This document shows positions 1,030 to 27,873 of a stretch of DNA of 32,269 nucleotides, in pieces (the stretch's first letter is position 1; the number at the start of each line of letters is the position of its first letter). The DNA comes from Psychrobacter sp. FME6 (GTDB lineage Bacteria; Pseudomonadota; Gammaproteobacteria; Pseudomonadales; Moraxellaceae): contig NZ_RRYW01000029.1 of NCBI RefSeq assembly GCF_014861365.1, forward strand, positions 1 to 32,269. Direction: 5' to 3'. The notes under the pieces are model-generated. The model ran no database searches and was not told where the DNA came from. It saw only the letters and a program-made list of their open reading frames with translations. The translations under genes and the position numbers were made by a program.

Positions 1030-1055
1030 AATAACAGCCTGATGGTAAGAAAAAT

Positions 1056-4010: not shown

Positions 4011-4069
4011 AATTAAGCACAGTATCTGTTAAACCTTAACTATTGCCTACCTAAATTTAATCGTATCGT

Positions 4070-5917: not shown

Positions 5918-5919
5918 TT

Positions 5920-5935
5920 CCGTATTGAACATTCA
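5920..5935 (+). repeat. 16-bp copy of an IS-end-like sequence
   Basis: CCGTATTGAACATTCA here is identical to 9110-9125, the left end of the MITE-like element at 9109-9330, and resembles the IS end at 1-53. It lies between the Fur boxes and the receptor start, so it may be a relic of an element end that now forms part of the 5' leader of the receptor mRNA. Confidence 0.55.
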
Positions 5936-5984
5936 TATCTTTTAACTCAAGACCCTCAACTACTTCTATCTGAAAGGAAATACG

Positions 5985-8192: not shown

Positions 8193-8297
8193 ACAATATA
8201 GAGCTTATCATTACTAGAGAATGCCTGTCTTATATACTGGCGTTATCTAAACTGATCACTTGAAAAATGAAACACTTAAATTAAGAAAGGCATTAAA

Positions 8298-9041: not shown

Positions 9042-9108
9042 TATGCTATTTGTCTTTTAATAAATGGTAATGTAATTATCAGTTTTTAATATAATTATTA
9101 TAAACTAG

Positions 9109-9330
9109 GCCGTATTGAACATTCACAAATAGCCCCTAGTGATCGCTAAAATTGTTCCAGACAAGGCGCAAATTGACGATAATGCAGAAATCTTAGCTAA
9201 AGTTGCAACGCATTACGAGATAATTTTAGCATCAGCCCTTACTTAACAAACTGGTACAGGACTCTTTTTGCCACTTCATTGATAAAAAATATTTTCTGTC
9301 AGGGACATGGTTGAATGTTCAACACACCCA
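9109..9330. mobile_element. MITE-like miniature element (about 222 bp)
   Basis: The stretch starts GGCCGTATTGAACATTCA and ends TGAATGTTCAACACACCC, an 18-bp terminal inverted repeat with three or four mismatches and the same terminal motif as the IS end at 1-53. Inside is a second inverted repeat, GCTAAAATT (9145-9153) with AATTTTAGC (9222-9230). There is no coding frame of useful length, so it fits a non-autonomous derivative moved by a related transposase. A clear target duplication is not visible, which suggests an old insertion. The gap 9042-9403 holds nothing else recognisable. Confidence 0.7.
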
Positions 9331-9403
9331 GTTCATTTAGGTCATATTAACAAAATTAAGACTTGATAGCATATTCTAACTTTCTTCTGATTATATCCAC
9401 TCT

Positions 9404-10546: not shown

Positions 10547-10576
10547 AACGGACCCCTTATAAAAAATAATTTCACA

Positions 10577-10611
10577 AAAAATATAAGGCGCCTGATCAAC
10601 TCAATGCGCCT
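10577..10611 (-). terminator. Weak hairpin between receptor and DUF2470-SIP gene
   Basis: AGGCGC (10586-10591) pairs with GCGCCT (10606-10611) across a 14-base loop. On the minus strand it is followed by an A/T stretch with a run of T. It could attenuate transcription between the receptor and the reductase gene. The stem is only 6 bp, so support is modest. Confidence 0.4.
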
Positions 10612-10650
10612 CATTTATTAGGCTTACGATATAGCAAGCCGTGATTCTAG

Positions 10651-12861
10651 CTAAAACTTATAAGACAGTGACGCTTTTACTTCACGTTCATCACCCGGTA
10701 TATTAAACGTATTGAGCGAACCGACACGGACGTAATGGTCTTTATTAAATAAATTATAAACGTTTAATTGACCAGTGAGCTGCTCATTAAATGGATAACT
10801 GACCATCGCATCCCAGGTATTATAAGAATCTGCCTTGATACCTTGCGAGGATGAGAATTCACCGACGGCGTTGACACCCAATCCCATTGTTAATGGACGA
10901 GCAAGCAAATTATCCGCTTTATAGCTTACCCAAAGATTAGCAGAGTGCTTGGGCATCAATAGGAAAATGCCATCATCCCTATCACTCGATGCCTGTTTGA
11001 TATCACTATCTAAATAGCTATAGCCACCAGATACTTGTAAGTTAGGCATAATTTCGCCATTAACTTCTACTTCTACGCCTTGCATTTGACGTTTTCCTAA
11101 TGCCACTTGATCGCCATCTGCTGTGGGAGCAGCAGCATTTTCATCGGTCAGACGGTAGCCACTCAGTCTCGCTGACAAGGTATCTTGCCAATGACCTTTT
11201 AGACCGATTTCTATCTGATCGCCTTCACGCGGTTTTAGTAATTCGCCGTCTTGATTGGCAACATATTGCGGGGTAAAGACTTGAGTATAACTGCCATAGG
11301 CATTGATATTCGGCGTCAGCTCATACACAGCAGCCCCATAACCAGTGGCTTTGCTACTACTGTCAGTACTGGCATCAGCATTGCTAATCTTATCATCACT
11401 TTCTATCTCATAATGACTCAAACGACCGCCGACAATTAGGCTTAATTTATCGATAGGCTTGTAATTCACTTTGCCGTATAAACCCGTTTCACTCAGGGTG
11501 TTCTCAGTATGGGCAAGCGCAAAGCCTTTTTCACCGCGACGTGCTTGCTCAATAATACTGACTTCGTTCAAATCATTGATTTGTCCGACCGTTAAACCTT
11601 GACCCAAGGCTTTAGTACGCGCGTTTTCATTATCAGTTTTAAAGCGTTTATAGTCAGCACCAATGACATATTCGCTTTGATGGTTGCCAATCTTAAACGG
11701 TTGGCTTAGATTGACATCAGCACTAAGCGACGTTTCGTGAATATCTGCACCAATACCGGCAACACTGGTTTTATTATCCTCAAGGGCGCCTCCTGCAAAG
11801 GCATAATTATAATCAGCTTCTCTATCAGAGTAGCGCATACCAGCACTGATGACGCCGGCACTAGCAAGACGATGCTCAAAATCGGCAAAAACATCATGGC
11901 TTTGACTGTTAAAATCGTTCCACTTGGCACCATAAAAATCATCACGTGGTAGCGATATTAATGATTTATCAGCAAAGGTAGGCAGACCATTATCAGGGGT
12001 AATTTGCCGATCTTGCATCAAGTAGCCAAAACCAAATTTACTGTTCTCATTCAATTGCTTGTCGGCACTGACGTAGACCGTACTGTTTTGATTGTCTTTC
12101 CCGCCGATATCATCGACTACTGGATTGGCACGCTGATTGTATTGCAGCACCGTGCGACCAACGAGACTGTCATCAGCACTTAAACTGCCCTGCAGATCAG
12201 CAGACACGCCGTAGCCTGTCGGATTGCTAACATTGGCTTCTAGAATTTGATCTCCATCGGCTTTACCGCGCTTTCGAACCAGGTTCACAACACCGCCCAT
12301 CTCTGACGCTGAATTAAACAAACCAGAAGGTCCGCGCATGACCTCCACTCGGTCGAATGCGGCTAAATTAGGCAAGGTGCCATTGATACTTGCCATGGGA
12401 GATGCGAGCCCATCGATACTGTATTGGTCATACTCATAACCACGAGAGTAAATAGACGAGCGCCCATCATCATTTTGCAGAACTCGTAAGCCTGTCGTGC
12501 GTTTGGCAATTTGATCTAAGGTATCAAGATTTAAGTCATCAATCTTTGCTTGGGTGATCACACTGATAGACTGTGGAATATTTTCTAGATAATCTGGTAT
12601 CTTGGTGCCGACCGTCGCGACATTGGCATTATATAAATCATTGTCTTCACTCGGATCAATGGCATATAAAGGGTTTGCGGTAACGACAATTGTATCTAAT
12701 GTGGTGCTAGGCTCTGAATCAGCATTATCTTGTAATTCAGCAGCAGTCGCTGGTACTGACATAAAGAGTAACGATAAAACAGAATAGCATAGCGGAGATA
12801 GTCGGAAATGCGAGGATTGATTTGAGGTATTATTAACCACGTGAGAATTCCTTAAAGCCAT
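10651..12861 (-). CDS. TonB-dependent siderophore receptor (FhuE/FpvA-like)
   Basis: A 736-aa outer-membrane receptor. A signal peptide ends near PATAAEL, then comes a TonB-box-like LDTIVVTAN. Plug motifs are ENIPQSISVIT, LDQIAKRTTGLRVL, SIYSRGYEYDQYSIDGL, FDRVEVMRGPSGLFN and MGGVVNLVRKR, followed by a barrel ending VNVYNLF-like LNVYNLFNKDHYVRVGS and LSYKF. The dipeptide order RTTGLRV and SRGYEYDQYSIDG is characteristic of FhuE/FpvA-type receptors. The listed ATG has no clear ribosome site, whereas AAGGAAT sits properly before an in-frame GTG seven codons later (12840), which is a credible real start. Upstream, 12900-12915 has only a half Fur site (GATAACGATT), so it may be co-transcribed with the lipoprotein gene 117 bp upstream. 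The nearby catecholate-type esterase gene suggests a related substrate, but this is inference. Confidence 0.9.
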   Translation of the reverse strand: MALRNSHVVNNTSNQSSHFRLSPLCYSVLSLLFMSVPATAAELQDNADSEPSTTLDTIVVTANPLYAIDPSEDNDLYNANVATVGTKIPDYLENIPQSISVITQAKIDDLNLDTLDQIAKRTTGLRVLQNDDGRSSIYSRGYEYDQYSIDGLASPMASINGTLPNLAAFDRVEVMRGPSGLFNSASEMGGVVNLVRKRGKADGDQILEANVSNPTGYGVSADLQGSLSADDSLVGRTVLQYNQRANPVVDDIGGKDNQNSTVYVSADKQLNENSKFGFGYLMQDRQITPDNGLPTFADKSLISLPRDDFYGAKWNDFNSQSHDVFADFEHRLASAGVISAGMRYSDREADYNYAFAGGALEDNKTSVAGIGADIHETSLSADVNLSQPFKIGNHQSEYVIGADYKRFKTDNENARTKALGQGLTVGQINDLNEVSIIEQARRGEKGFALAHTENTLSETGLYGKVNYKPIDKLSLIVGGRLSHYEIESDDKISNADASTDSSSKATGYGAAVYELTPNINAYGSYTQVFTPQYVANQDGELLKPREGDQIEIGLKGHWQDTLSARLSGYRLTDENAAAPTADGDQVALGKRQMQGVEVEVNGEIMPNLQVSGGYSYLDSDIKQASSDRDDGIFLLMPKHSANLWVSYKADNLLARPLTMGLGVNAVGEFSSSQGIKADSYNTWDAMVSYPFNEQLTGQLNVYNLFNKDHYVRVGSLNTFNIPGDEREVKASLSYKF

Positions 12862-12978
12862 AGTAGATAACCCATTGGGTTTGTTAGTGGTTTTAAAAAC
12901 AGATAACGATTAAACGGAAACGACTCTAGCTTCATCTAGTGAAGTCAGAGCCTGTTCTTACCAGTTAGCACTCAACAA

Positions 12979-13752
12979 CTAGAATCCTCTAGCATTATCA
13001 CTAGTCGCGGTATAAAAGATATTAAAAGCACTATTAGCGCCAGTTTTTATGACTTTACCATCTACTGTTGCACTGGCTTCGAAATTAACACCACCACCTG
13101 CACTTTCACCGCTAGCAATGTTAGGTAAGGTCAAAGAGTGTACGACCACTTTTTTATTGGTAACTGGTATATTTGCTTTGGTTATTTTGGTACCACGTGG
13201 TTTGACCACTTCGCCCTCTGCAACGACTGTTGATAAATCGTCATAAATGATATCGAAATTTAATAATTGTGCCTGATCAAGTTTTGCTTGACCATTGACA
13301 ACAGGGATACCAACAAGAGTTTTGCTGCCACGATGGATCATGCGATTATCGATAACTTTACCATTATCTAGCTTTCTGCCTTCTGCAGCCACTGAGTTAG
13401 TTCGAACCATCAACATCACTTTATAGCCTGGTACTGCAACTTTACCTTTTCCATCAAAAATATCAGCGACCAATTCTGGTACATTTTTCGCTTTATTGAT
13501 GACTACTCGAGCAGAGTTTTCAGAAACGGGATAGTCTTTGCCGTCAATCGTTAAATAACGGGTATCAGCATAGTTACTTTGAGTTTTCATGAGACCCGTG
13601 GTGACAGCATTAGAGGTAGATACAGGCGTTGCGCTAGACGATGACATCGTATTTTGACAGCCTGCAACCCCTAAAGATAATAGTGCAATAGATAAAATAG
13701 AAACTTTAGACAATAGGTTTTTGCTGAAACATGACTGAGTTGAACGTGACAT
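12979..13752 (-). CDS. Lipoprotein of unknown function, Fur-controlled
   Basis: A 257-aa protein with a lipoprotein signal: basic N-terminus, hydrophobic VSILSIALLSLG and the lipobox VAGC, giving a lipidated Cys at about residue 32. After a Ser/Thr-rich linker comes a mostly beta-predicted domain containing YLTIDGKDYPV, VPGYKVMLMVRTNSV, and a GGGVNFEASATVDGKVIKTG segment. I do not recognise the family. It sits head to head with the IroE-like esterase gene across two Fur boxes and directly upstream of a siderophore receptor, so a periplasmic or outer-membrane role in siderophore capture or receptor function is a reasonable inference, not an assignment. The ATG lies next to an AT-rich leader; the Fur sites are 60-120 bp upstream. 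Confidence 0.8.
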   Translation of the reverse strand: MSRSTQSCFSKNLLSKVSILSIALLSLGVAGCQNTMSSSSATPVSTSNAVTTGLMKTQSNYADTRYLTIDGKDYPVSENSARVVINKAKNVPELVADIFDGKGKVAVPGYKVMLMVRTNSVAAEGRKLDNGKVIDNRMIHRGSKTLVGIPVVNGQAKLDQAQLLNFDIIYDDLSTVVAEGEVVKPRGTKITKANIPVTNKKVVVHSLTLPNIASGESAGGGVNFEASATVDGKVIKTGANSAFNIFYTATSDNARGF

Positions 13753-13812
13753 AATTTAATCTCATAAGAAGGATTTTTGTGAAATACAGAACCACTAGAA
13801 AGCAATATTATT

Positions 13813-13831
13813 GATAACGATTATCATATGC
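13813..13831. promoter_or_regulatory. Fur box 1 in the lipoprotein/esterase divergent promoter
   Basis: GATAACGATTATCATATGC is a near-consensus Fur site lying 61 bp upstream of the lipoprotein ATG and 141 bp upstream of the esterase ATG. It is probably the main repressor site for the minus-strand unit. Confidence 0.8.
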
Positions 13832-13854
13832 ATTATTATTACTATATTGTAACT

Positions 13855-13873
13855 GATTGTCAATCATTATCAG
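13855..13873. promoter_or_regulatory. Fur box 2 in the lipoprotein/esterase divergent promoter
   Basis: GATTGTCAATCATTATCAG matches the Fur consensus less well than box 1 but in the same helical neighbourhood, about 100 bp before the esterase start. The pair suggests coordinated iron repression of both divergent units. Confidence 0.6.
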
Positions 13874-13971
13874 TGATATAAACTGCATTTGTTAATCCTC
13901 TTACAGCTTCAATATAAGCAACGCTATGTCTAAGGCTTTTTTCAATAAATTAAATATAATAAAGGATAAGT

Positions 13972-14994
13972 ATGTCAAGATTTCAGGGAAGCCTTGCAAT
14001 TATAACGATAACTATGGCAGGAATAATAATGTCACCAAGCTATGCTAAACCTGACTTGACCAAGACAGTAGATATGAGCTTATTGCATGCCAAAGATACC
14101 GGGTATCGTTTCGTATATCATACTTTCAGTGCACCTGCACCAGAACTACCCTCCTCTAGCGTAACCAATTTACAGTCAAAAATGCTGCAAGCCTATGCAA
14201 AACCTCGCCATTATCAAGTGTGGTTAGCTATTCCTGAGCAGACAACCGATCATCTACTCTCTAACAATTCTGTAAAAACTCCTAGTAAAGTGCTTTATAT
14301 GCTTGATGGCAATGCGGCTATTGATGATTTAGACAAAGATATCTTACTATCACTGGCTCATTCTTCGACACAGGGCACAGCACCTGTCTTAGTTTTTATA
14401 GGTTATCAGAGCCCTTATCGCTTTGATGTCGATGCCAGAGCATATGATTATACTCCACCCTTATTAGCCAACACTACAGATAACAATGCGTTTACAGAAG
14501 AAGGTAGAGAGCGATTAAATGGTGGTGCAGAGCAGTTTTATGAGCTGATAGAAAAAGAAATTAAACCGTGGGTATATGAACAGTTGGGCGAGAAACCGAA
14601 GCAAGAGGCGATTTGGGGACACTCTTACGGTGGTCTGTTTGTGTTATATAATTTGTTCAAGCATCCTGAAGCTTATCAGCAGTATTTCAGTGCAGATCCA
14701 TCACTTTGGTGGCAAAATGGAGAGATGATTAACTATTGGCAGGCATATCAAAATCTTCCTAAAGCGCAACTTGCAGATATATCCAATAATAAACACAAAC
14801 AAATACGACTCACTTTTAGTCACTCTGCAGAGCAAACCACTATGCCAGTAGTAGCGCCTACTCTGATGAGTAAAAAAGAATTCGCCAAGGAAGTCTGTGA
14901 GCACTTTGAGGAGCGTTGTAGCTATCAGTTTTACAACCAATCTCATGCAGAGGTATTTACAACCTCTCTATTAGAGAGCTTAAAGAACTTCTAA
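13972..14994 (+). CDS. IroE/Fes-type alpha/beta-hydrolase, probable periplasmic siderophore esterase
   Basis: A 340-aa protein with a cleavable signal peptide (hydrophobic IITITMAGIIM, cleavage after PSYA). The fold is the esterase family that includes IroE and Fes, which hydrolyse ester bonds of catecholate tri-lactone siderophores. Visible are YMLDGNAAIDDL, FIGYQSPYRFDVDARAYDYTP, the nucleophile elbow GHSYGG with Ser218, the family motif SADPSLWW close after it, and a candidate catalytic His325 in NQSHAEVF. The periplasmic signal favours IroE-like action before inner-membrane transport. Substrate identity is inferred. It is transcribed away from the lipoprotein-receptor-reductase set across Fur boxes, which suggests it processes the siderophore taken up there. 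A recognisable Shine-Dalgarno, AAAGGATAAG, precedes the ATG. Confidence 0.82.
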   Translation: MSRFQGSLAIITITMAGIIMSPSYAKPDLTKTVDMSLLHAKDTGYRFVYHTFSAPAPELPSSSVTNLQSKMLQAYAKPRHYQVWLAIPEQTTDHLLSNNSVKTPSKVLYMLDGNAAIDDLDKDILLSLAHSSTQGTAPVLVFIGYQSPYRFDVDARAYDYTPPLLANTTDNNAFTEEGRERLNGGAEQFYELIEKEIKPWVYEQLGEKPKQEAIWGHSYGGLFVLYNLFKHPEAYQQYFSADPSLWWQNGEMINYWQAYQNLPKAQLADISNNKHKQIRLTFSHSAEQTTMPVVAPTLMSKKEFAKEVCEHFEERCSYQFYNQSHAEVFTTSLLESLKNF

Positions 14995-15197
14995 GATTAA
15001 GTCTATTCAAGATTAGTTTATTACCCTGATCTTATCTCCTAGATAAGAAAAACCTCACTAGGTTACCCAAGCAAGGCGGGAGAGAAAGATTGTTATTATA
15101 TTTATTTTTATTATTATCTTAGTTATTTTTAATAATAGCGAGACGAGATTGATTATATAGAAAGCCAACTATGCTAAATGACTCCTATTTTTCATTG

Positions 15198-15599
15198 CTA
15201 TTCATTTACAAAGGCTATTTTGCTCAGCCCTGCTTGACTGGCTGCCGCCAGTACCTGCGCCACCGTATCATATTTGCTGTCTTTATCCGCGCGCAATTGA
15301 ATAGAAGGGTCTTTGCCTGAAGCACTTTCTTGCTGCAAACGAGTATCTAACTCTTCTATGCTAATAGGATCGCTATCCCAAAAAATACCGGCATCTTTAT
15401 CAATACTGATTTGGATTGCTTCAGGTGGCTGCTCATTGATTAGCGCACTGGTCTTGGGTAAATCAAGCGGTACTGTTGGGTTCAAAACAGTCGCTGTCAA
15501 TAAAAAGATAATCATCAATACCAACATGACATCAATAAGTGGAATGAGGTTCATCTCATTCATACTTTGAACGTCATCATCACCTAACTGAAATGCCAT
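15198..15599 (-). CDS. exbD: ExbD, TonB-system membrane protein
   Basis: A 133-aa ExbD/TolR-family protein: short cytoplasmic start, one membrane helix (about residues 17-38, LIPLIDVMLVLMIIFLLTATVL) holding the conserved Asp in PLIDVML that carries the proton, and a periplasmic domain with LPKT, IQLRADKDSKYDTVAQVL and a terminal KIAFVNE. It is third in tonB-exbB-exbD, 109 bp after exbB. Together with ExbB it uses the proton gradient to drive TonB and so powers the three receptors in this window. TolR is the alternative name for this family; the tonB gene upstream decides for ExbD. Confidence 0.9.
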   Translation of the reverse strand: MAFQLGDDDVQSMNEMNLIPLIDVMLVLMIIFLLTATVLNPTVPLDLPKTSALINEQPPEAIQISIDKDAGIFWDSDPISIEELDTRLQQESASGKDPSIQLRADKDSKYDTVAQVLAAASQAGLSKIAFVNE

Positions 15600-15708
15600 A
15601 ATATTCTCAATTGTGTATCAGTCTTATACAAAATCATAAATTTTTGCTTTGAAAAAAACCATGCAGTTCTATCGTTTACAACAGCTTTATAAATAAAGGC
15701 TAGCACTG

Positions 15709-16398
15709 CTACTGTTGATAAGCTTCTTGTTTATCAGTATGAATACTACTATTGCTATGAGCACTCTTACTACCAGTGACATTAGTGGTTATACCCTGCT
15801 TTTCAGCTACATTATGAGGCTCCATTGAAGGTTGCATTGCTGCTAAATCAACAGACTGCGCCAATAAATCATGGGCTCTATCATTGGCATGGTACATTAC
15901 CCGTCGATTGATACGTACGGCAAGGTTATAAAACACCACTGCTGGAATTGCGACGGCAATACCGAGACCTGTCATAATGAGCGCCTCGCCAACTGGCCCT
16001 GCCACTTGTCCAAGTCCTGCTTGCCCACTGGTACCGATATTATGTAACGCGTGAAAAATACCCCACACTGTACCAAATAACCCAATAAATGGTGCGATCG
16101 CTGCAGTGGTACCTAAAATAGGTAAGCCGCGTTCGCTAGCAAAACGGTAACGCCCTATATGCTTTAATAATGCTTGCTCAATGACTAATCGACGCATAGC
16201 AGCATCAGAGTTAATCACAGCTGAACGCTTCATCTCAACCTGCTGACTCAAATCATCAGCAACACAGGCGGCCAATTTTCGGCTTTGTAATATGCGAATA
16301 ATACCAGTTACCCAAGAGAGCACCGATAAGACCAATAGCAAGAAAAACAAGCTTTTGGTCACCAAATCGCTGTATTGCCAGTAGCTTGTAAAGTCCAT
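15709..16398 (-). CDS. exbB: ExbB, MotA/TolQ/ExbB proton-channel protein
   Basis: A 229-aa inner-membrane protein with three helices: about residues 12-34, 100-130 and 145-170. The conserved MotA/TolQ/ExbB segments are LPILGTTAAIAPFIGLFGTVWGI (split here as LPILGTTAAIAPF and IGLFGTVWGIFHAL), GEALIMTGLGIAVAIPAVVFYN and a short basic stretch RINRRVMY. The C-terminal tail is Ser/Gln rich. It assembles with ExbD into the motor that energises TonB. It lies between tonB (123 bp upstream) and exbD in a single operon. A short purine-rich site (AAGGAGTG) precedes the ATG. Confidence 0.92.
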   Translation of the reverse strand: MDFTSYWQYSDLVTKSLFFLLLVLSVLSWVTGIIRILQSRKLAACVADDLSQQVEMKRSAVINSDAAMRRLVIEQALLKHIGRYRFASERGLPILGTTAAIAPFIGLFGTVWGIFHALHNIGTSGQAGLGQVAGPVGEALIMTGLGIAVAIPAVVFYNLAVRINRRVMYHANDRAHDLLAQSVDLAAMQPSMEPHNVAEKQGITTNVTGSKSAHSNSSIHTDKQEAYQQ

Positions 16399-16521
16399 AT
16401 CACACTCCTTAATATGTTATGCAATCATATGAGTTCGTTGCGAGTACCGCATATCGACTTATCATGAAAAATTATAAATAGTGACGCTTTGAAAATAATG
16501 GGCTTGGTAAATAACTAACTT

Positions 16522-17472
16522 TTACGGCACTGCATAACTGATAGGTAAAGTTACATTACCCACCACTGGTACGCCATTTTTCGTAAAGGGTTTAAATTTA
16601 CCAGAACGTACTTGTTGCTGAGCTTCTCTATCGAGTGCAGCGTTGCCAGAAGATTGCGCTAAGCTCACATTATCAATGCCGCCTTGCTTATTAACTTGTA
16701 ATATCAAAACCACCCTAAAGGTTTCGCCTGATTTGGCAGCTCGTCTGGCACGAGCAGGAAAACTAAAACTCGGTGCTGAGGCCCAGTTGGCGTTAGTGGC
16801 AGTAAAATTGACGGGGGTATTACTTGCGGCGGCGGCAGCTTGTTGATTGGCTTTCTCACGAGCAGCGGCTTGTGCGGCTTCTCTTGCCGCTTTGGCATCG
16901 GATTCGGCTTGCGCTTCACGATCTGCCTTTGCTTTGGCATCTGCCGCTGCCTGAGCCTCTCGCATAGCTTTGGCATGCGCTTGTTGAGTAGCCTTTTCAG
17001 CCTGTACTGCCAATATCTTACGTTCGTTATCGGCTGCTAAAGCGCTTGCTTGAGCTGCTGCGTCTGATTCTTGTGATTTTATTGGTTGTTTGATGACAGG
17101 CTTGCTATTTACTACCTTTGTTGTCGCAGTAGCTGGTTTAGTATCAACTTGAGGCTTTGGTGTTTCTTTTTTCACAACTGGTTGCACGGCTTTTTTAGGC
17201 TCTGGTTTTGCCTCAGGTACGCTAACAGATTGTGGTTTAGGCGCTTTAATAGGTTCGACTTCTGCGGCTGCCGTCACCGGCTCTGCAATTGTCGTAACTT
17301 CTGACACCAACTGTATTTCTATAGGTGGCGTTATTTTAAGTGGCTTAATAGTAGTCACAGGGGTTTTGACCATCACCAATGCAATTGCTGTCAGCAAATG
17401 TAATGCGACAACACAACCCATAACTGTTGATGTTAATTTAAGTGATGGCACATTGAAACTTGTTGAACCCAT
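16522..17472 (-). CDS. tonB: TonB energy transducer with a TolA-like linker
   Basis: A 316-aa TonB-family protein. A single N-terminal anchor (VMGCVVALHLLTAIALVMV) is followed by a periplasmic Pro/Lys/Glu-rich stretch (PIEIQLVSEV, then repeated KP and EPKKAVQP) at about residues 45-135. A charged Ala/Gln/Lys-rich segment, ERKILAVQAEKATQQAHAKA to AAREKANQQAAAA (about 150-220), looks like the long helix of TolA. The C-terminal TonB_C domain (about 235-316) has FSFPARARRAAKSGETFRVV, GGIDNVSLAQSSGNAALDREA and FKPFTKNGVPVVGNVTLPIS. It contacts the receptor TonB boxes and transmits ExbBD energy. It heads tonB-exbB-exbD, with a Fur box 45-63 bp upstream. The long helix may span a wide periplasm. Confidence 0.9.
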   Translation of the reverse strand: MGSTSFNVPSLKLTSTVMGCVVALHLLTAIALVMVKTPVTTIKPLKITPPIEIQLVSEVTTIAEPVTAAAEVEPIKAPKPQSVSVPEAKPEPKKAVQPVVKKETPKPQVDTKPATATTKVVNSKPVIKQPIKSQESDAAAQASALAADNERKILAVQAEKATQQAHAKAMREAQAAADAKAKADREAQAESDAKAAREAAQAAAREKANQQAAAAASNTPVNFTATNANWASAPSFSFPARARRAAKSGETFRVVLILQVNKQGGIDNVSLAQSSGNAALDREAQQQVRSGKFKPFTKNGVPVVGNVTLPISYAVP

Positions 17473-17713: not shown

Positions 17714-18014
17714 ATATGTATCACTAACTCCTTTATGATAATCGCTGTTTACTTATCTGACCTTACAAAAAACGAAATAAGCAATAATATTGAAGATTGA
17801 AGGCAAAATAAATAGCGAAGAGCACTGTTGTTAATACAGTTATGCAGACTCTTTACTACCCTTCCTATATTTGGCAGTCGTTTGATTAACCAACTTTCTA
17901 TAACCTGTATAATGAGTTATTTATGTTTACCACTTTACTCTCTACACCAGTACCTGTATTCAAGCGTCTGACCCCTGCCGTCAAATCCGTAGAACCAAAC
18001 TTGGGAGATTTTAA

Positions 18015-18358
18015 TTACGCAGCTTGACGATAATAATCAAACCACACCTGTCTTGGCGATTTATAGCTCAAGCCCTTTTGAATTCTAGTCTCACTGCGAG
18101 CACAGCTCTTGCCTTGCGTCGCTGCAAAGCAGTGCTTTGCTAATCGTTCCTCATGTAGTACAGCTCGATGTATCTAATGACATCGGTAATAGCGGCAAAT
18201 CTAGTTTTATAATCTCTATGATATACCATCTCATTCTTCAATATGCCCCAGAAGCTTTCTATCGGAGCATTATCAAAGCAATTGCCTTTGCCACTCATTG
18301 AGCCTATAAACTGGTGCTGTTTAATGATCTTATGATACGCATGGCTACAGTATTGACT
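18015..18358 (-). pseudogene. IS3-family transposase OrfB, C-terminal fragment, interrupted
   Basis: The minus strand reads SQYCSHAYHKII, GSMSGKGNCFDNAPIESFWG, ILKNEMVYHRD and VIRYIELYY, the C-terminal part of the IS3-family rve integrase domain, including the catalytic Glu in NAPIESFW. The expected last residues (IQKGLSYKSPRQVWFDYYRQ, then AA and stop at 18015) follow only after about 67 bp of unrelated hairpin-rich DNA (18087-18153) that breaks the frame with a stop. The N-terminal two thirds of OrfB, all of OrfA and the left IS end are missing. Upstream of SQYC the usual HSDRG is replaced by other sequence, so this is a dead fragment. Confidence 0.88.
18087..18153. repeat. Hairpin-bearing insertion inside the transposase fragment
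   Basis: About 67 bp separates two contiguous pieces of the OrfB coding sequence. It contains the near-perfect palindrome GCAAAGCAGTGCTTTGC (18124-18140) and a GC-richer stretch CACTGCGAGCACAGCTCTTG. It has the size and structure of a small dispersed palindromic element. Confidence 0.6.
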
Positions 18359-18360
18359 AC

Positions 18361-18386
18361 TGGCTCCTGTCGTCAAATCCATAGAT
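18361..18386 (+). repeat. Second copy of the IS-end sequence, next to the recombinase trio
   Basis: TGGCTCCTGTCGTCAAATCC with ATAGAT after it matches 17969-17993 (TGACCCCTGCCGTCAAATCC GTAGAA) in about 21 of 25 positions and in the same orientation, 392 bp away. It lies 17 bp from the stop codon of the 1044-aa recombinase. It could be the end of a second IS copy or the left boundary of the trio element. Confidence 0.6.
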
Positions 18387-18402
18387 ATAAAATTGAGAGG
18401 TA

Positions 18403-21400
18403 TCAATTAGTCAAACCATCAACAATCAGCAAAAAATGCAAAACATAACTCATCAGAGCCGAAGATAATTTTGAATTACCCTTCTGCTTCAGCGGACTAA
18501 TAACCGTTAGTGCATAACCATTATAGGTTCCCAAGCTAGTAAGCTCGCTTTCAAAACTAGGAACTTTTTGTCTAAACTCTTCTATACGTTTGATCTGAGC
18601 AGCCTTATTGACAACAGGACGATACGCTTTTTTATTCTTCTCATTAATATAAGGCTCCGACTCAATACAGCTGATATTTACCCGCCAATGTTTACTGGGT
18701 AGAATTTGACACATGATTTTTAGATAGCTATAAAACAGCTTTTCTTGCTTAAAGCTAAAGCGAATCTCACTTTTTGAAGTATTGGTTTTCTCATAAAATA
18801 CCTTAAGCATTTGTTTTATTTCACGCCTACTCGCTTTGGATGTATAAAGCACCTCAAGGTTATCAAAACATTGATACACCAGCGCTTGCTCTTCACGATA
18901 ATGCAGCGGCGTTGGCGCGATTACAATATGATTGGAGCCTTGTTTACGCCTTTTTGAGATGAGCTTATGATTAAGCGTTCCATCGTCATTTTTTACTAAG
19001 CTCAGTGCGCGCTCATAAATCATTAACGCATCATCATACCTAAAGTTTAAACGACTAGCGTCCCCGAGTGTTTGACCATCTTCAAGGTCGCATAAAAGCT
19101 TTTCTATCGTCTCACGGCTATATCTACCAAACACGGCTGAAGACTGCTCTTTATCCGTATCGATAATACGGCTAGTTGAGTGAGGTGCTTTTACCTCATA
19201 ATCAGCAAGCTTTAGTTTCTTACACTCAATCTTACGATTCACATATGATCTGATCTTACTAAGATTGACCTTGTCATCTCTACTCTCTAAAGCAAGCGTA
19301 TTATGCTGTTTTAGATCCATACGACTGGTGCCAATCAGCTTGTTAACTACATCTAAAGGTAGAGTCAATTTCGCCTGCTGCAATTGATGGCTTGCGATAA
19401 GATCAGCAACGTGTATATAAGAACTAAAGGTAGTATTGAGGTCAGCATGACCTGCAAACTCCATGAGAGCATCCCAATGGTTGGTTGAGACACGACGCTT
19501 TTTACCTAAAAAGTGGGTTTTAATCTTGACGATTTGCATCTCATCATAACCTGTAAATTGCTGAGCAAATGTAGGATTGCATCTGAGTATGAGCGCCATA
19601 TTAGATATTACATTATGGCGAAAGCTGTGCATGGTTAGATCATGATAAGCGGTGTTTTCTAGTATGCGTTTTAGTGGCTGCTCAATACTATGACGAGACA
19701 ATGGAGAGGACTGATATGCCAAAGTAAATAAGTAGCGAGAAGACTGATTCTCTTTTAGATGAAAGAGTTTTTTAAACATCTCTATTTCTTTTGGCAAGAG
19801 TAGTAGGGATAAACAAATTCGCCGGGTACCATCATCTGATTTCAAGTCACGATGGGCATTTGAGCGAACAATAACGTTGTATTCCTTAAATCCTTGATTG
19901 TCGTATTCAATATCTTTAACTTGTAGCCCTAATATCTCGCTGATACGCATGCCGGTACGGTATAGCAATATTGTGACGATACTAAGTGCTTGCTTATAGT
20001 AATCACTCAGCCTCTCTTGCTCAGCGATACAATTAAGAATATTGTGATAAACCTGATTAGGTATGAGATAACTGGATACTATCTGTGGATCACCGCCACC
20101 TCTAATGTCGATATCAGGCGCTTGGTAATACCTTTTCAAAGAGTGATGCAGTGAGCAGATAACCGTTTTAGTAAACCCTAATTTATTTGGGTTCTTCTCA
20201 GCAATGATTTCGTTATATAGATAGTGGTAGTCATGCTTTGAGCATTGCATGAAATCAGTTGTACGCGTCCCTGCAATGAAGCCATTACCAATCTCAGACA
20301 AGTATCGTTTTAAAGTATTGATTTTATTACCACTGGTGAGTAAATCTAGCATCCATCTCACCAGTCGTTCTTGATTTGGATATAGGTTTTGGGTCAATAG
20401 ACTTTCTAACTGTGATTCAACTTGTCTTTTATCATTATTGAGTATGCTGCGTATTTCTTTAACCGCATCGGACCTAAATCTTTCAACCTTCACACCAACA
20501 AGTGAGTCCTTAGCACTATTACTAGATTCAATGACTAATTTACTAACGTGTTCATCTGATAAAATAGCATTGGGCGTTTTAATACTTTGAAAGTATCTAA
20601 TCCACTGGTCTATTGGCATTGAGGTTTGCTTTTGCTGACCTATTAGTACTTGCACCAGTTGAATGTCTAAATACACTTCTGGCATAGTCTGCCAATAGAT
20701 GGCAATGTGCCGTAAGTAGCTAGACTTATGGATGGAATTAACCGTAAAATTTTCTCCAATATACTCCCCTAGTCTTCTGACTACTTGATGATATTTAGGA
20801 AACTCGTTTTGCACTTGATACTGGCATTGTAGTTTGAGCAGCCATAAGCGACTGATATCATCTATGATGATCAGGCGTGTGTGATACACTTCATCTAAAT
20901 CGTTTTCTGTAGTAACAAGCTCATTGCCATAGTCGGATGATAGTAGCCTGATCGGCATGACCAGCATGTCATCAGTCATCTGATAGATAGGCTTTTTTTG
21001 CTCTAAATGCTCGTAAACCTTTTTGAGTAACTTTTCATCGTTATATCCTGCAAAACTAATGAGTGAGAATAAAAACCAGCTGACGCTATCAAGTAATGAA
21101 AAGGTATTTTTCTGCTGCCACTTATCAAACGCTTGTGCGACAATACTCTGGGCTGTAGATAAATATAGAAACGTCTCAAAATCATTGATATTTTTAGGAC
21201 GCTGCGGACGTACCGCAATTATTGGCTTTGGTAGTAACGGCAGCTGTCTTTTTTTACGCGCATCATTAATTCTATCAAAAAAGCGCTTGCGCTCGAATAA
21301 TGCAAATGGGATAAGATACGCTGAAACGCACTTTTCAATCTCGTCATAAAGCGCTTCATATAAACCGTATATCTGCTTGTCTGTTATTACCTCTGACGAT

Positions 21401-21537
21401 TGATACTCTTTAATAAAAGCATCCCAAGCGTTTTGACACAGCTCTTTTGTATGCTGTAATGCCTGCTTGCGCCGATCTTGCGCTTGTTCTGAGCGCCTCA
21501 AGTGACCATGTAGACTATCCGGCTGCATCTTTGTCAT
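18403..21537 (-). CDS. Large tyrosine recombinase, third gene of the recombinase trio
   Basis: A 1044-aa protein whose central domain (about residues 500-715) is a tyrosine recombinase: YRTGMRISEILGLQ supplies the first catalytic Arg (near 529), HSFRHN the HxxR (near 637), and FAGHADLNTTFSSYIH the second His and the nucleophile Tyr (near 707). All catalytic residues are present. The 500-residue N-terminal part is helical and of no recognised family. A 330-residue C-terminal part (RLNFRYDDALMIYERALSL and beyond) is also unassigned. The ATG overlaps the stop of the 747-aa gene by 4 bp (ATGA), so translation is coupled. Three-gene recombinase operons are known from Tn554-like, RIT and gamma-mobile-trio elements; size and order best recall the last (integrase GmtZ), an assignment from memory that needs a profile search. 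Confidence 0.85.
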   Translation of the reverse strand: MTKMQPDSLHGHLRRSEQAQDRRKQALQHTKELCQNAWDAFIKEYQSSEVITDKQIYGLYEALYDEIEKCVSAYLIPFALFERKRFFDRINDARKKRQLPLLPKPIIAVRPQRPKNINDFETFLYLSTAQSIVAQAFDKWQQKNTFSLLDSVSWFLFSLISFAGYNDEKLLKKVYEHLEQKKPIYQMTDDMLVMPIRLLSSDYGNELVTTENDLDEVYHTRLIIIDDISRLWLLKLQCQYQVQNEFPKYHQVVRRLGEYIGENFTVNSIHKSSYLRHIAIYWQTMPEVYLDIQLVQVLIGQQKQTSMPIDQWIRYFQSIKTPNAILSDEHVSKLVIESSNSAKDSLVGVKVERFRSDAVKEIRSILNNDKRQVESQLESLLTQNLYPNQERLVRWMLDLLTSGNKINTLKRYLSEIGNGFIAGTRTTDFMQCSKHDYHYLYNEIIAEKNPNKLGFTKTVICSLHHSLKRYYQAPDIDIRGGGDPQIVSSYLIPNQVYHNILNCIAEQERLSDYYKQALSIVTILLYRTGMRISEILGLQVKDIEYDNQGFKEYNVIVRSNAHRDLKSDDGTRRICLSLLLLPKEIEMFKKLFHLKENQSSRYLFTLAYQSSPLSRHSIEQPLKRILENTAYHDLTMHSFRHNVISNMALILRCNPTFAQQFTGYDEMQIVKIKTHFLGKKRRVSTNHWDALMEFAGHADLNTTFSSYIHVADLIASHQLQQAKLTLPLDVVNKLIGTSRMDLKQHNTLALESRDDKVNLSKIRSYVNRKIECKKLKLADYEVKAPHSTSRIIDTDKEQSSAVFGRYSRETIEKLLCDLEDGQTLGDASRLNFRYDDALMIYERALSLVKNDDGTLNHKLISKRRKQGSNHIVIAPTPLHYREEQALVYQCFDNLEVLYTSKASRREIKQMLKVFYEKTNTSKSEIRFSFKQEKLFYSYLKIMCQILPSKHWRVNISCIESEPYINEKNKKAYRPVVNKAAQIKRIEEFRQKVPSFESELTSLGTYNGYALTVISPLKQKGNSKLSSALMSYVLHFLLIVDGLTN

Positions 21538-23774
21538 AAGATAACCTGCTCTAATTCCAGCTCTATTGCCAACTGCTGGTAAGGTTTTTTAGCGTCTAAT
21601 ATATGCCCTATAGACAGTGCTGAGTTTTTTCGCCACGCTTCTTGCCCCATCATTTCATGACCAAAAACTGCCAAAATGACAGCTTCATCTACTCCCCGTT
21701 CATGTAAAAACCGTTGTCCCACATGGCGTGTCCAATCTGGCTTAAAGCGAAAATGAGTATCTAACTCTTGAATAATAATAGCTGGTCTAAGCGCATGAAA
21801 TCTGCCTTTCTTATCTATAAAGTTGAGTAGCGGCCTTTGGTAATCAAAAACCTTACTCACCTCTATACTAATGTTAGTATCTAAGCGTCCATAACGCCGA
21901 GCAAAGCTTCTTAAGTAACGTAAGAAGTTTTGAATAGCTTCCTGTAGAAATGCACAAATAGGCACTAAGCGCTGACTACTCGCTGTCGCCCGCTCCTCCT
22001 TATCAGAAATCCACATGATACCGGCTTGCAAGTTTATTTGGCTGAGATAACCTGGTGCGCCTTCTACCGCTCTTATTGAAGTCAGCAAAAGACACACATG
22101 CCATAACCATAAGTTATAAAAATTAAACTTTTCCCTATAGTTGTTAGTAGTTACTACCTTTTGCTGTAGGTAACTCATGAATTGCTTCACTATTGGATAG
22201 TCAGGGCTGTTTTGACTACCTATAGCCTCATCATTTGGTGCGACCTTGGATAGATAATCAACCAAGCTAGATTTGTTTTTATAACAGCGGTCAGTGAGAA
22301 TCTTAATCGCATTATAGTAAACCTCTTCTACCTCTTTAATCTCATGCGAGCTATACCAAGTATCTGCTCTTTTTTTACTGTTGCGTGAGGTGATGATAGT
22401 AGCCAGTTGAGTGCTACTGACTTGATAAATTAAAATGGTGTAAAGTGACTTTTTAATCCGACCCAAACTAATCAGCGGTAACTGTAGCGATACTCGTAGC
22501 TCAGCAATAACTTCATTAACCAACGCTGAATCTGGGTATCCTTTATAGGTTAAAAAAACCCCCAAAGCTTCAGGTAATGGTAGTTTGAACTGTGTTAGCC
22601 GATTAGCAATAACAGACTCTACCCCTACCGTTCTAATGCGCAGCGGCGTAATATCTAAATTGATAATGAATTCGTACCTTGTCCTGCGATTACTGATATC
22701 AGTGATTTTTTTATAATTGTTATTGATATCTTCAGCAAGTCTAGCGACTGAATGACCGGTGTATAAAGCAAGCAGCAAATAAACAATCGCGCGCTTTTTG
22801 TCCCTATCGCCTCCACCATCTTTGCAATCGTCAAACCATTGCCACAGCTTAGCGGTTATGTTTTGAATAGTAATGAGCGATAACTGACGAATATTGCTGC
22901 TTACAAATCGCTCATTCTTATTAGCATGAGCATACTTCGCCCTTGTTCTTCGAGACATCTGATTGTATGAGAACTTTTCATGATCCGCTAACTTTGTCTG
23001 ATCGAGATGAAAAAAATCAGGGACCGGATCATCTAAACGTTCACGATAAATATCGTTATTATTTTTTGTTTGCTCAAAGCTTGTGACTGATATTAGCTCA
23101 TCCGCATCATCATCGACGTCTGTGTGCATGACGTGCTGGATACTAGGTTTATCAATTCTGCTTCTTTTGGTCTGTTTTCTGCCGGAGGAAGTGCGCGTTA
23201 TGCTATCTCTATTATTAAACGCAAAATCAATGGTTCGATATATTTTGATAAATGATTTGAGATTAGGGTCATTCGTATTCTCAAGTTCGATTCGATAACT
23301 CTCAAACCTCTCATAGGTAGTCTGTAAGCTATCAGCTTGTAGCATCAAGTAACAGTGATCCCAAAGACTGTGATTACCACTATTTGGATTCATCCATTTT
23401 CTAGCTTCAGCAGTAGTCTCACTAATACGATTAGGTAGTTCATTCTGAGCAAAATAGATAAGCAGATGGCATAATTTTGCGACCCACAGCCATTCTTCAC
23501 TTGGATTGTTGATATCAAGGTTTGGTAGATGATAGGTACTGGCGATAAAGGCTCGAGTGAGATTTTCGGGCTTAGTCAACTTACGATCATAGGATTGGTA
23601 TATTTTTTTAAGATACGCTGAAGTCAAAGCTTTTGACTGTTCCGCTTCTACGTTGATGTCCATAAAGGCATTCGAGACTAAACTAGCGACGGTTATAAAG
23701 AAATGACGGACATCAGTAGTATAGATGTCCTTAGTATCTGGTATCAGCGTCTCTACGTTATTAATTATTATCAT
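21534..23774 (-). CDS. Recombinase-like protein lacking the nucleophile Tyr, second gene of the trio
   Basis: A 747-aa protein with a C-terminal tyrosine-recombinase-like domain (about 530-720). TSIRAVEGAPGYL fits the first Arg box. PDWTRHVGQRFLHERG occupies the HxxRH box with the first His replaced by Asp. FGHEMMGQEAWRKNSAL fits the GH box, but no Tyr is found where the nucleophile should be. It may therefore be a structural or DNA-binding partner, or use another residue. The N-terminal 500 residues are unassigned. ATG 23774 is chosen because GAGG lies close upstream; an upstream in-frame TTG (23789) is less likely. It overlaps the end of the first gene by 14 bp and the start of the third by 4 bp. 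The counterpart in gamma-mobile-trio elements would be recombinase GmtY (inference). Confidence 0.78.
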   Translation of the reverse strand: MIIINNVETLIPDTKDIYTTDVRHFFITVASLVSNAFMDINVEAEQSKALTSAYLKKIYQSYDRKLTKPENLTRAFIASTYHLPNLDINNPSEEWLWVAKLCHLLIYFAQNELPNRISETTAEARKWMNPNSGNHSLWDHCYLMLQADSLQTTYERFESYRIELENTNDPNLKSFIKIYRTIDFAFNNRDSITRTSSGRKQTKRSRIDKPSIQHVMHTDVDDDADELISVTSFEQTKNNNDIYRERLDDPVPDFFHLDQTKLADHEKFSYNQMSRRTRAKYAHANKNERFVSSNIRQLSLITIQNITAKLWQWFDDCKDGGGDRDKKRAIVYLLLALYTGHSVARLAEDINNNYKKITDISNRRTRYEFIINLDITPLRIRTVGVESVIANRLTQFKLPLPEALGVFLTYKGYPDSALVNEVIAELRVSLQLPLISLGRIKKSLYTILIYQVSSTQLATIITSRNSKKRADTWYSSHEIKEVEEVYYNAIKILTDRCYKNKSSLVDYLSKVAPNDEAIGSQNSPDYPIVKQFMSYLQQKVVTTNNYREKFNFYNLWLWHVCLLLTSIRAVEGAPGYLSQINLQAGIMWISDKEERATASSQRLVPICAFLQEAIQNFLRYLRSFARRYGRLDTNISIEVSKVFDYQRPLLNFIDKKGRFHALRPAIIIQELDTHFRFKPDWTRHVGQRFLHERGVDEAVILAVFGHEMMGQEAWRKNSALSIGHILDAKKPYQQLAIELELEQVIL

Positions 23775-24309
23775 AGCGAACCTCACCAATTAGTTCAGAG
23801 AAAGATGGTATTTTCTTGGACTGCTGATTACGGTATAGACTGGTTTGGTAGTCATAATGATGACGCTTGAGACCTTTAATATCTAGAATGTGCTGTATGG
23901 TCAGAGGTTTATTAAATAGCGCTTGTTGCACTTGAGTAGGCATATCACTTTTTATAGCCTCAAATATTTTTGGGTCAATAGGATCTACATTGGTAAACTC
24001 GTTCATCAGACAAGACCAAGCACGTCGCTCAATTTCTGCTTTAGAAGGGTTTACTCTTCTAATTGAGATTTCAGTGCCGTCCATTAGCAAACCTACTTCT
24101 CTAAAACCTTCAAAAAAATAATACCGCTCGTCTATCTCAACGACTTCTAATAATAGTGTTCTATCTGAGAAAAACGCATTAACCTCAGCTTCGAACAATT
24201 CGCAGAATATCTGATAAGGTTTACCGGCACATTCGTGCACTACCAAATTGTTTTTTATGGCAATGCTTTTGACGCTTCGCCTCACTACTTTTTTGGTACT
24301 CTTCGCCAT
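23761..24309 (-). CDS. First protein of the recombinase trio, function unknown
   Basis: A 182-aa protein starting MAKSTKKVVRRSVKS, with a strongly basic N-terminus. Further on are ECAGKPYQIFCELFEAEV, YYFFEGFREVGLLMDG and a C-terminal LTIQHILDIKGLKRHHYDYQ that could be a helix-turn-helix-like DNA-binding segment. ATG 24309 is preferred, with AGGT about 8 bases upstream; the frame is open for 39 more codons but without support. The stop overlaps the next gene, so the three form one operon. It may be the accessory DNA-binding subunit of the recombination complex, comparable with TnpC of Tn554 or GmtX; this rests on position only. Confidence 0.7.
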   Translation of the reverse strand: MAKSTKKVVRRSVKSIAIKNNLVVHECAGKPYQIFCELFEAEVNAFFSDRTLLLEVVEIDERYYFFEGFREVGLLMDGTEISIRRVNPSKAEIERRAWSCLMNEFTNVDPIDPKIFEAIKSDMPTQVQQALFNKPLTIQHILDIKGLKRHHYDYQTSLYRNQQSKKIPSFSELIGEVRYDNN

Positions 24310-24891
24310 GATCAATGACCTATATATCAGAGGTATATCCCATACAAAATTATTCACCCACGATAGGGTAGGCATGCTAAAATATCTTTGGTTGGTGTCA
24401 TAATACCACACTAAACTAGTGACCAAAAATATGTTTAATACGCCAATCTACTTACTATTTGAAAATAATTAAGTATAATAAAAATCTTGAAACCTTTTAG
24501 AATAAAGGTTTACAGACTAATACAATCTAATATCATTTTGGTTTACGCCCTTGCCAAGGTTGGGGTTTCATACTTACTCCTGTTTGTTGTTTTTTATATT
24601 TCTTTATTCAAACTATCCAAGGCAGCAATTACTTTTTTTATAGTATAAGAGGATTAAAGTAACTAATTCCATTTCATCAATTATGTTAATGGATGGCACG
24701 CCCTAAGGCAATGACAGTACCCTTTTATGTTGTTATTCATCTTATCTTGCCGATAATCGACTATTTTGACTATGTGTTGCAAAGTGGGCTACAAGTGGTA
24801 CAGTAGAGCTATGCAGGCCATCGCTTTAATATCATAGCTTCAAGATAAGTTACGACAGAAACTTTGATTTTGTAAAAGGAGTTCACTACTG
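24310..24891. other. Intergenic region between recombinase trio and RHH gene
   Basis: Divergent promoter region. It contains a small hairpin, AAACCTTT (24490-24497) with AAAGGTTT (24504-24511), and a solitary GCACGCCCTAA at 24697-24707 that resembles the ends of the TA-flanked miniature elements. No clear right-hand boundary repeat matching 18361-18386 was found. If the trio belongs to a mobile element, its right end is probably in here or further on. Confidence 0.5.
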
Positions 24892-26288: not shown

Positions 26289-27023
26289 TTAGATCCAACC
26301 CGGCTCCAAAAGGTGCTCGGTGTTACTCATTTTAAATTCATGATATAAGTCAAAAAATACTGCTGGGTCTTCAACATTGTCAAGCAACTCGCGTTTATTG
26401 AGCGCCACAAACATTGCCAGCGCATACGCAGCACAATGGATAGATTTTTTTGGATTAAACTCACGATCTGTAAAGGCCTGATATTGCATGACCTCCTCAT
26501 GCAGATGCGGGTTTTGCTTTAGGGCATTCACATACAGCCAGTCATAAAATGTAGTCAATGGCTCTACGCTCCACTCCATGCCAAAGTAGTCATAGCCAAT
26601 CAGTTCCCCCGAGGTTATTAAACGCTCGTCCTTTTTGGCTTGTCTTGGCGGCGCGGTTAGCAAGTCAGTATAGGGGCCACCGTCCTCAAAAACCATACTG
26701 CTTTGAAAGGCATTTTCGACACTATACTGCTTGCCATCATGCTCATTCGTGAGCTTTAAGCTCGATGGACTGAGCGGAAAACTCAATTTATTGCCAGATT
26801 TACTAGATAGCTCTAAGACATGACTAAAGCCATACTTTTTGCGAATAACTTGATGCATATCATTGATGGATTTTTTCTTTTGTCTACTCGCGAACCCCAC
26901 ATGCCGCTCAAATCTAACCATGTCCGTTTTTACCAAATTGTCACTATTGACTCTAGGCATTAATACCGGTCTGTGCTCTACAGCATCTTGTCTTTGATCC
27001 ACAGAGTTCTGTGTTTGTTGCAT
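26289..27023 (-). CDS. DarT1-associated NADAR-like protein, orphan
   Basis: A 244-aa protein. Residues about 36-225 read RFERHVGFASRQKKKSI, VLELSSKSGNKLSFPLSPSS, VENAFQSSMVF (102-112), GGPYTDLL (115-122), TTFYDWLYVNAL (157-168) and FTDREFNPKKSIHCAAYALA (184-203). I recognise this as the NADAR family that serves as antitoxin to the DNA ADP-ribosyltransferase DarT1. Characterised members are glycosidases that remove ADP-ribose from guanine. The match is from recall of the family pattern, not a search. No DarT1-like gene is adjacent: upstream is an acidic protein of unknown type, downstream a convergent deaminase. AAGGCAC precedes the ATG. It may be a retained orphan antitoxin or part of another ADP-ribose pathway. 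Confidence 0.65.
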   Translation of the reverse strand: MQQTQNSVDQRQDAVEHRPVLMPRVNSDNLVKTDMVRFERHVGFASRQKKKSINDMHQVIRKKYGFSHVLELSSKSGNKLSFPLSPSSLKLTNEHDGKQYSVENAFQSSMVFEDGGPYTDLLTAPPRQAKKDERLITSGELIGYDYFGMEWSVEPLTTFYDWLYVNALKQNPHLHEEVMQYQAFTDREFNPKKSIHCAAYALAMFVALNKRELLDNVEDPAVFFDLYHEFKMSNTEHLLEPGWI

Positions 27024-27138
27024 AGCAATGTGCCTTATATCAATCGTCTTGTATAAATGTTCTTTTATAGCAGGTCTTTTATAGCTGTTTTTTACAACTA
27101 CTCTGGCATAAACAGTATTTTAAGATAACTGTCGTTCG

Positions 27139-27160
27139 AAATTAGGGCATGCCCTAATTT
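27139..27160. repeat. Perfect 22-bp palindrome between two minus-strand genes
   Basis: AAATTAGGGCA followed directly by TGCCCTAATTT is a perfect palindrome. It is 8 bp beyond the stop of the 27169 gene and carries the TTAGGGC[AG]TG motif of the TA-flanked element ends. It could be a joined pair of element ends, an operator, or a weak transcription stop. Confidence 0.65.
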
Positions 27161-27168
27161 CTTGCTGA

Positions 27169-27873
27169 CTACTCAGCAGCATCCAATAATTTGTTAAGCT
27201 CGTCCACCATGGCATCATCTATGATGTTGTCTTCCACATAGCTGACTATCTCATCTATGGTGGTCAAATCCATTTCTCGAATATCTAAGTGAGCTAATTG
27301 CTTATTAATAGAGTCTAAACTGTCATTGTCTTCAGAGTCATCTAATAGACTTTCTTCGAATCGTCCCCTGACGAACCAGTACATTTTTTCTAGCACGGTT
27401 TCTTTTTTGGTCAAAGTAGAATAACCGTCACCATAAATAAATAAGTTGAAATGGTAAGGCATCTCTACCTCATTAATAAAAAAAGTACGCTGGCATTCTA
27501 GTGTATAGGCTTTAATGTCTTTATCTTCAACGGCTTCTTCATCTTTATCGTCTTCATCATATTCAATCGCCTCCTCTACCAATTCACCTAGTATTTGATA
27601 GCCCCCTACTTTAATCTTATGATTATAAATGATAGAGGAATCGGCGATTGCGTCAAAGATAATGGCACTGACATCTAACGTATGATTGTCAATATCATAG
27701 AAGCTCTTTAAAGCGGGTAAAAATTCAGTCAGCTTTTCTTCAGGTACTTGAATGAGGAACTGCTGCTCATATATTTTAATCATATCTTCAGGCGCATAGG
27801 TATTGGCAGTATCAGTCTCGTTTCTACCGGTAGGCTGCAAAGGTAAAAAATTATACGGGTTAGTATTGGTCAT
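27169..27873 (-). CDS. Acidic protein of unknown function
   Basis: A 234-aa, strongly acidic protein with clusters of Asp/Glu (EYDEDDKDEEAVEDKD around residues 105-120 and LLDDSEDND near 176). There is no signal peptide or membrane segment. It has mixed alpha/beta pattern with YEQQFLIQVPEEKLTEFLPA, HKIKVGGYQILGELVEEAI and CQRTFFINEVEMPYHFNLFI. I do not recognise the family. It lies 145 bp upstream of the NADAR-like gene on the same strand, the place where a DarT1 toxin might be expected, but nothing in it resembles DarT. AAAGGCC precedes the ATG. Acidity and position are compatible with a DNA-mimic or regulatory partner, which is speculation. Confidence 0.75.
   Translation of the reverse strand: MTNTNPYNFLPLQPTGRNETDTANTYAPEDMIKIYEQQFLIQVPEEKLTEFLPALKSFYDIDNHTLDVSAIIFDAIADSSIIYNHKIKVGGYQILGELVEEAIEYDEDDKDEEAVEDKDIKAYTLECQRTFFINEVEMPYHFNLFIYGDGYSTLTKKETVLEKMYWFVRGRFEESLLDDSEDNDSLDSINKQLAHLDIREMDLTTIDEIVSYVEDNIIDDAMVDELNKLLDAAE

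Follow-up and report, generated by a model that had tools for sequence, protein, structure and literature searches.

The window analyzed here, 32,269 nucleotides that form an entire contig of the 3.36-Mb genome of Psychrobacter sp. FME6, contains three tightly overlapping genes, here called A, B and C, whose products include two recombinase-like proteins. The locus raises the question of what this trio is, and whether it takes part in moving the DNA around it. An initial annotation had likened it to the Gamma-Mobile-Trio, a system reportedly described by Mahata et al. in 2024. We judge it slightly better than an even bet that the trio forms a module for site-specific recombination, located at one end of genomic islands; sitting at an island edge beside tRNA-derived sequence, such trios probably help these islands to move.

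Table 1. Features of the window (positions are those of the whole stretch).
Feature	Position	Strand	Basis
Iron-uptake genes: PepSY_TM x2, TonB receptors x3, SIP x2, esterase, ExbD, ExbB, TonB	43..17472		Pfam; ExbB and TonB named from sequence; DNA match to trio-free G075, G010 and G052
IS3-family remnant separating the trio from a truncated gene	17969..18358	-	NF033516 E 9.8e-23 (ORF 18140-18406); DNA match to IS3 in L096
6.2-kb block shared with differently placed trio copies (G051, G093, G020, G014)	18359..24569		DNA comparison
Gene A, 1044-aa tyrosine recombinase	18403..21537	-	PF00589 E 1.7e-15; invariant residues; predicted fold
Gene B, 746-aa recombinase-fold protein without nucleophile	21534..23774	-	Alignment, predicted fold, dN/dS
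Gene C, 182-aa small protein	23761..24309	-	Without family match; alignment of 19 sequences
CCCCAACCTTGGCAAGG, 17-bp core identical to the tRNA-Gly(GCC) anticodon region, reverse strand	24549..24565	-	Sequence match; genus-wide association with B genes
NADAR gene (26289-27023) and acidic gene (27169-27873), flanking core genes	26289..27873	-	PF22397 E 4.6e-83 (NADAR); adjacent in trio-free loci

All three genes lie on the minus strand. The first 14 bp of B are shared with the end of C, and the stop codon of B overlaps the start of A by 4 bp (ATGA). These overlaps bear out the tight coupling noted at the outset, as do the lengths of 182 and 1044 residues for C and A; B, given initially as 747 residues, has 746 when counted from its ATG, and the ORF caller extends it to 751 from an upstream TTG. 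C was described as a small basic protein and is indeed small, but only mildly basic, with a computed pI of 7.7 (B, 8.9; A, 9.1). Comparison of the window with genomes G051, G014 and G100 (G and L numbers are our handles for genomes and loci) gives dN/dS values of 0.14 for A, 0.16 for B and 0.18-0.23 for C, indicating that all three are maintained genes and not chance open reading frames.

Our alignments comprise 22 A, 21 B and 19 C sequences, the distant clades being 19-25% identical to the A and B proteins of the window. In A, residues R531, K566, R640, H641, H697 and Y707 are invariant across the 22 sequences, in agreement with the initial annotation of one tyrosine recombinase with a complete catalytic set, and A is thus predicted to be active. 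A predicted model (mean pLDDT 77.7) places the core-binding and catalytic domains at residues ~385-722, with further N- and C-terminal regions outside them, and finds a structural match in 3nkh (Z 14.1, rmsd 3.5 over 193 residues). The Pfam Phage_integrase profile that recognizes A (Table 1) matches B marginally (E 0.044) and C not at all. B keeps R569, K593, R684, H685 and H707, but in none of the 21 sequences is the nucleophile position a Tyr, as had been proposed for the second recombinase-like protein; a conserved GHE...QE motif occupies the nucleophile region in its place. The catalytic fold of B, which in the predicted model (mean pLDDT 75.6) runs from residue ~520 onward, matches 4a8e (Z 16.6, rmsd 2.4 over 169 residues), with Foldseek alone giving weak hits (best E 0.011). 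This nucleophile-less fold, taken with a dN/dS of 0.16, identifies B as a maintained dead recombinase. Tyr475 and Ser477, in the region 300-500 ahead of the catalytic fold, are likewise invariant in B; residues 300-500 may form a second, degenerate domain. C matched no family in any profile search run on the window proteins, nor any recombinase, and a putative helix-turn-helix near its C-terminus was read by eye.

Relatives of B, fragments counted, occur in 69 of the 105 genomes of the genus and in 5 of 369 gammaproteobacterial genomes, the window's own among the 5. The 80 loci kept out of 93 relatives carry the labels Psychrobacter (66), Acinetobacter (10), Moraxella (1), a gammaproteobacterial MAG (1) and Streptomyces (2); the trio relatives at L142 and L197 lie in contigs labelled Streptomyces cinereus JCM 3040, which are probably assembly contamination. 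B also matches 71 plasmid records, 69 of them from Acinetobacter, with the gene order C-B-A on one plasmid and B-A on a second. The 262 plasmid records matched by A overstate the number of trios, because one further plasmid match, found with A, proved not to be a trio.

The trio and the relatives of B move horizontally. G051 and G014 are 95.3% identical in the trio and 80.0% in the neighboring NADAR gene, and the order is reversed between G051 and G020, with 82.1% identity in the trio and 94.3% in NADAR. Four copies of the 776-aa clade share a 6.3-kb block at 83-95% identity, and their C-side flanks are unlike. The comparison of strains suggested initially did find sites without the trio: among 20 stretches around the acidic gene, 6 have a trio relative and 6 others have an intact tRNA-Gly and no trio, although the 6 of 20 is not a frequency, the stretches having been drawn from the 81 genomes with the acidic gene and 3 of them picked for a nearby trio. 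At positions 9628-9845 of L082 (G014), a fragment of gene A from another clade directly adjoins the end of the trio, which suggests stacked insertions at this site.

A short tRNA-derived sequence marks one end of the trio. The 17-bp core (Table 1) lies at the outer, C-side end of the window's trio and is the sole match in the window at up to 2 mismatches (0.01 expected). Genus-wide, 17 of 150 core matches among those listed fall within 6 kb of a B gene, where ~0.9 would be expected by chance for a presumed 3.2-Mb genome. Among the matches listed, most genomes have two, as expected from two tRNA-Gly genes, and 15 of the 16 genomes with at least three have one beside a B gene; an 'ATG' core (G041:C28) and the third core of G003 have no B gene within 6 kb. 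In five cases of the 811-type the core is on the A side and the trio is inverted. Outside the core, the window, G014 and G062 have non-tRNA sequence. Next to the trio, the tRNA remnant frequently has no T arm, and G039 and G045, 99.7% identical over 7.5 kb, differ there.

These cores occur in pairs that delimit islands. In G020, 49.9 kb lie between the two copies of a 51-bp direct repeat consisting of the tRNA-Gly 3' half; a broken trio stands at one of these ends and an intact tRNA-Gly at the other, and G050 contains the uninterrupted counterpart of this site. Same-strand core pairs on one contig, among the matches listed, are separated by 51.7 kb in G069, 53.8 kb in G029, 60.6 kb in G006, 66.0 kb in G030, 71.1 kb in G013, 71.7 kb in G062 and 84.1 kb in G065; such pairs are also present in G100 (54.4 kb) and G092 (35.1 kb). 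Overall, paired cores 35-84 kb apart were found in at least ten genomes. The idea that the mobile unit is the trio without cargo, which came from the shared 6.2-kb block, was dropped after the paired cores showed larger islands. In 7 of 18 genomes (G000, G009, G014, G021, G046, G051 and G093) the trio and the far end are on different contigs, so their linkage there is assumed.

What the islands carry differs from place to place. The iron-uptake cluster beyond gene A in the window is probably island cargo; parts of it lie between NADAR and tRNA-Gly in G010, G052 and G075, where the trio is absent. The NADAR and acidic genes, put forward initially as possible cargo, are flanking core genes instead: they turn out to be present in genomes without the trio as well, side by side in trio-free loci, and the acidic gene is found in 81 of the 105 genomes of the genus. 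This NADAR belongs to a DarT1-associated family and lies beside the tRNA-Gly site in many genomes; a scan of window proteins found no DarT1. The stretch 24892-26004, with a ribbon-helix-helix-like gene and a deaminase gene between the end of the trio and NADAR, is missing from the other trio copies compared and is possibly a second small insertion. A dispersed repeat of ~100-150 bp occurs at 26058-26205 and 28902-29003, and also near the core of G092 and the NADAR gene of G026. On the other side of the trio, the ~40 bp after the A stop codon (18359-18402) and the stretch 17967-18005 resemble IS3-family inverted repeats; by eye, this likeness is seen in nine trio copies, in two versions like the two ends of an IS3, and 5 of these copies are recovered with a motif that tolerates 2 mismatches at most. 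That the end of A is itself a product of IS3 truncation was rejected, as the A protein of G051 has an identical C-terminus.

Defence genes recur in the islands of trio relatives. Sampled proteins of the G020 island include a type IIG enzyme, ZorC, ZorD, PDC-M26 and an McrBC component; those near relatives elsewhere include Ssp proteins in G062 and MkoA-like and restriction proteins in G092, and in G084 Avs3a/Avs3b lie beside a trio of the 776-aa clade. The sampled proteins were picked by size, 10 in each of three sets, and PADLOC matched 9 of 10 and 7 of 10 in two sets, counts that stand without a background control. The kind of cargo looked for in a Gamma-Mobile-Trio is thus present in the trio relatives of G020, G062, G092 and G084, whereas the window's own neighbors are iron-uptake genes.

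How might such a module work? We infer that A, B and C together catalyze island integration. A would cut and rejoin DNA, B, as a dead recombinase subunit, would most likely complete the DNA-protein complex, and C could be a small factor that binds DNA or sets directionality. For the clade of the window, the module's target would be the core identical to the tRNA-Gly(GCC) anticodon region; integration would leave the tRNA 3' half as a copy next to the trio, and the island, 35-84 kb long, would have the intact tRNA gene at its opposite end. Several observations count against this model: the cores flanked by non-tRNA sequence in the window, G014 and G062, the two cores with no B gene within 6 kb, the inverted trios of the 811-type, the ends of the 776-aa clade, which do not carry this core, and the seven genomes in which linkage is assumed; no excised circle was seen.

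At that far end, an ordinary integrase competes for the same role. In the G020 island, an integrase with Arm-DNA-bind_2 and Phage_integrase domains (Pfam), missed by a simple motif scan and found later by Pfam, lies ~1.1 kb from the intact tRNA-Gly. Its relatives adjoin the intact tRNA-Gly in 17 of the 18 island ends checked (counted after dropping L266 in G045, which has no core, and L268, the second tRNA-Gly of G021), which leaves the part of the trio in integration unproven and makes the integrating enzyme a matter of inference. This integrase could move the island by itself, in which case the trio would be carried along as a passenger, or be a second element added at the attachment site of the far end, a reading that we consider distinctly less probable than a recombination module, yet worth taking seriously. 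In favor of this reading, none of six trio-free intact tRNA-Gly sites has the integrase, and G010 and G004 have it at a site that lacks the trio. Counting against an integrase acting alone are trios that lie beside the core, in two orientations, in clades just 19-25% identical, the lack of any core at four trio-free loci beside NADAR (L065, L068, L075 and L081), and G092, the exception among the 18 ends, which has a trio and in whose 35 kb no such integrase was found by a widened motif and similarity to the G020 integrase, a search that could miss another type. Moreover, G051 and G010 match the ordinary integrase in two different frames, and the gene may be broken in both; the trio of G051 is open.

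Two further readings dispense with the tRNA-bounded island. The trio might be a transposon-like unit with many insertion sites, comparable to Tn554-like elements, for which tRNA-Gly is one favored target in some clades. Trios are indeed found on plasmids, and the four copies of the 776-aa clade end sharply on the C side, each against a different flank; tRNA-Gly is not among these flanks, and the core is absent from that end. The strong association with the core in other clades argues against this reading, as does the failure to find a second end for the 776-clade insertions or a usable empty site in G084 and G053, and we regard it as improbable. Less plausible still, and in our view very unlikely, is that the trio serves a purpose other than island movement, such as regulation or defence: recombination by the trio is still a prediction and, as a point listed in its favor, PADLOC models match none of A, B or C, but the active site of A is complete and invariant and the trios sit at island ends.

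Taking the recombination module as our working model, we tentatively propose an unnamed class of integrative elements centered on the Moraxellaceae, with a very large active recombinase, an obligate dead partner and a small DNA-binding protein, that would target a tRNA anticodon region and build defence and metabolic islands there alongside an ordinary integrase; we would not yet bet on this proposal. If it is correct, one active recombinase, one dead recombinase and one small protein would be another composition among multi-protein recombinase elements, and the trio would serve to mark where islands end in Psychrobacter and Acinetobacter. With a dead partner that is conserved, one could also test why inactive recombinases are retained in systems of this kind. 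The literature on such elements, of which coverage was partial, yielded no description of the trio.

Several known systems resemble the trio in part. SE combine two complete recombinases, IntA and IntB, with Tfp and Srap, and have imperfect inverted repeats of 13-19 bp with a 6-bp spacer, as described in the available part of one source (PMC10214605). The trio shares with them an overlapping recombinase operon, a recombinase-fold protein without the catalytic motif, a small protein and a gammaproteobacterial host, but has one complete recombinase, A, where SE have two. In profile comparisons made with single sequences, hhalign gave the window proteins probabilities of at most 0.5% against the pAQU1 genes of 545, 614, 671 and 161 aa, which we take to be an SE, and profile comparison gave below 1% against Gamma-Mobile-Trio proteins; the same method scored A against B at 0.2% despite their shared fold, so these profile negatives are weak. 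GInts, with the operon ginABCD, have complete GinA and GinB, a GinC without the first arginine and a small GinD in the portion of the description available (PMC5385486). Like the trio, they have a recombinase operon at one island end, large cargo, one degenerate member and one small protein; their two complete recombinases set them apart by composition as described, and B, unlike GinC, keeps both arginines and lacks the Tyr. Tn554-type elements, with complete recombinases TnpA and TnpB plus TnpC, and RIT elements, with three tyrosine recombinases, also have three-gene recombinase operons (PMC10214605, as far as available). By composition as described there, the nucleophile-less B and single complete recombinase distinguish the trio from the former, and a C without a recombinase match from the latter.

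A further parallel is to the Gamma-Mobile-Trio, which consists of GmtY, GmtZ and GmtX in the available part of its description (PMC12715929). A, B and C match none of its models at E<=1. A locus in G216, the positive control and the one locus above cut-off in 229 genomes, passes all three, with GmtY (NF040693) at 508.9 bits (cut-off 340), GmtZ (NF047926) at 765.1 (cut-off 600) and GmtX (NF040692) at 210.9 (cut-off 40); NF040694, considered as GmtZ, was rejected as another family. The trio, which the initial annotation had taken for a possible Gamma-Mobile-Trio, is thus not one. Nor do its proteins give an equivalog match to an ordinary integrase set, consistent with that annotation. The G216 genes encode proteins of 441, 908 and 200 aa, in that order, with recombinase matches in both large proteins, whereas here the order is small protein, pseudo-recombinase and active recombinase, with one complete recombinase. 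Both systems nevertheless have a tight trio, a very large recombinase, a small protein and island cargo with defence genes. The part of the earlier comparison that survives is the unusual trio with anti-phage genes in the islands of its relatives, and because of those genes it is reasonable to say that the trio works like a Gamma-Mobile-Trio. A similar way of life would then have been adopted by an unrelated trio and, if this is true, GMT-like carriers of defence islands exist in an unrelated protein family.
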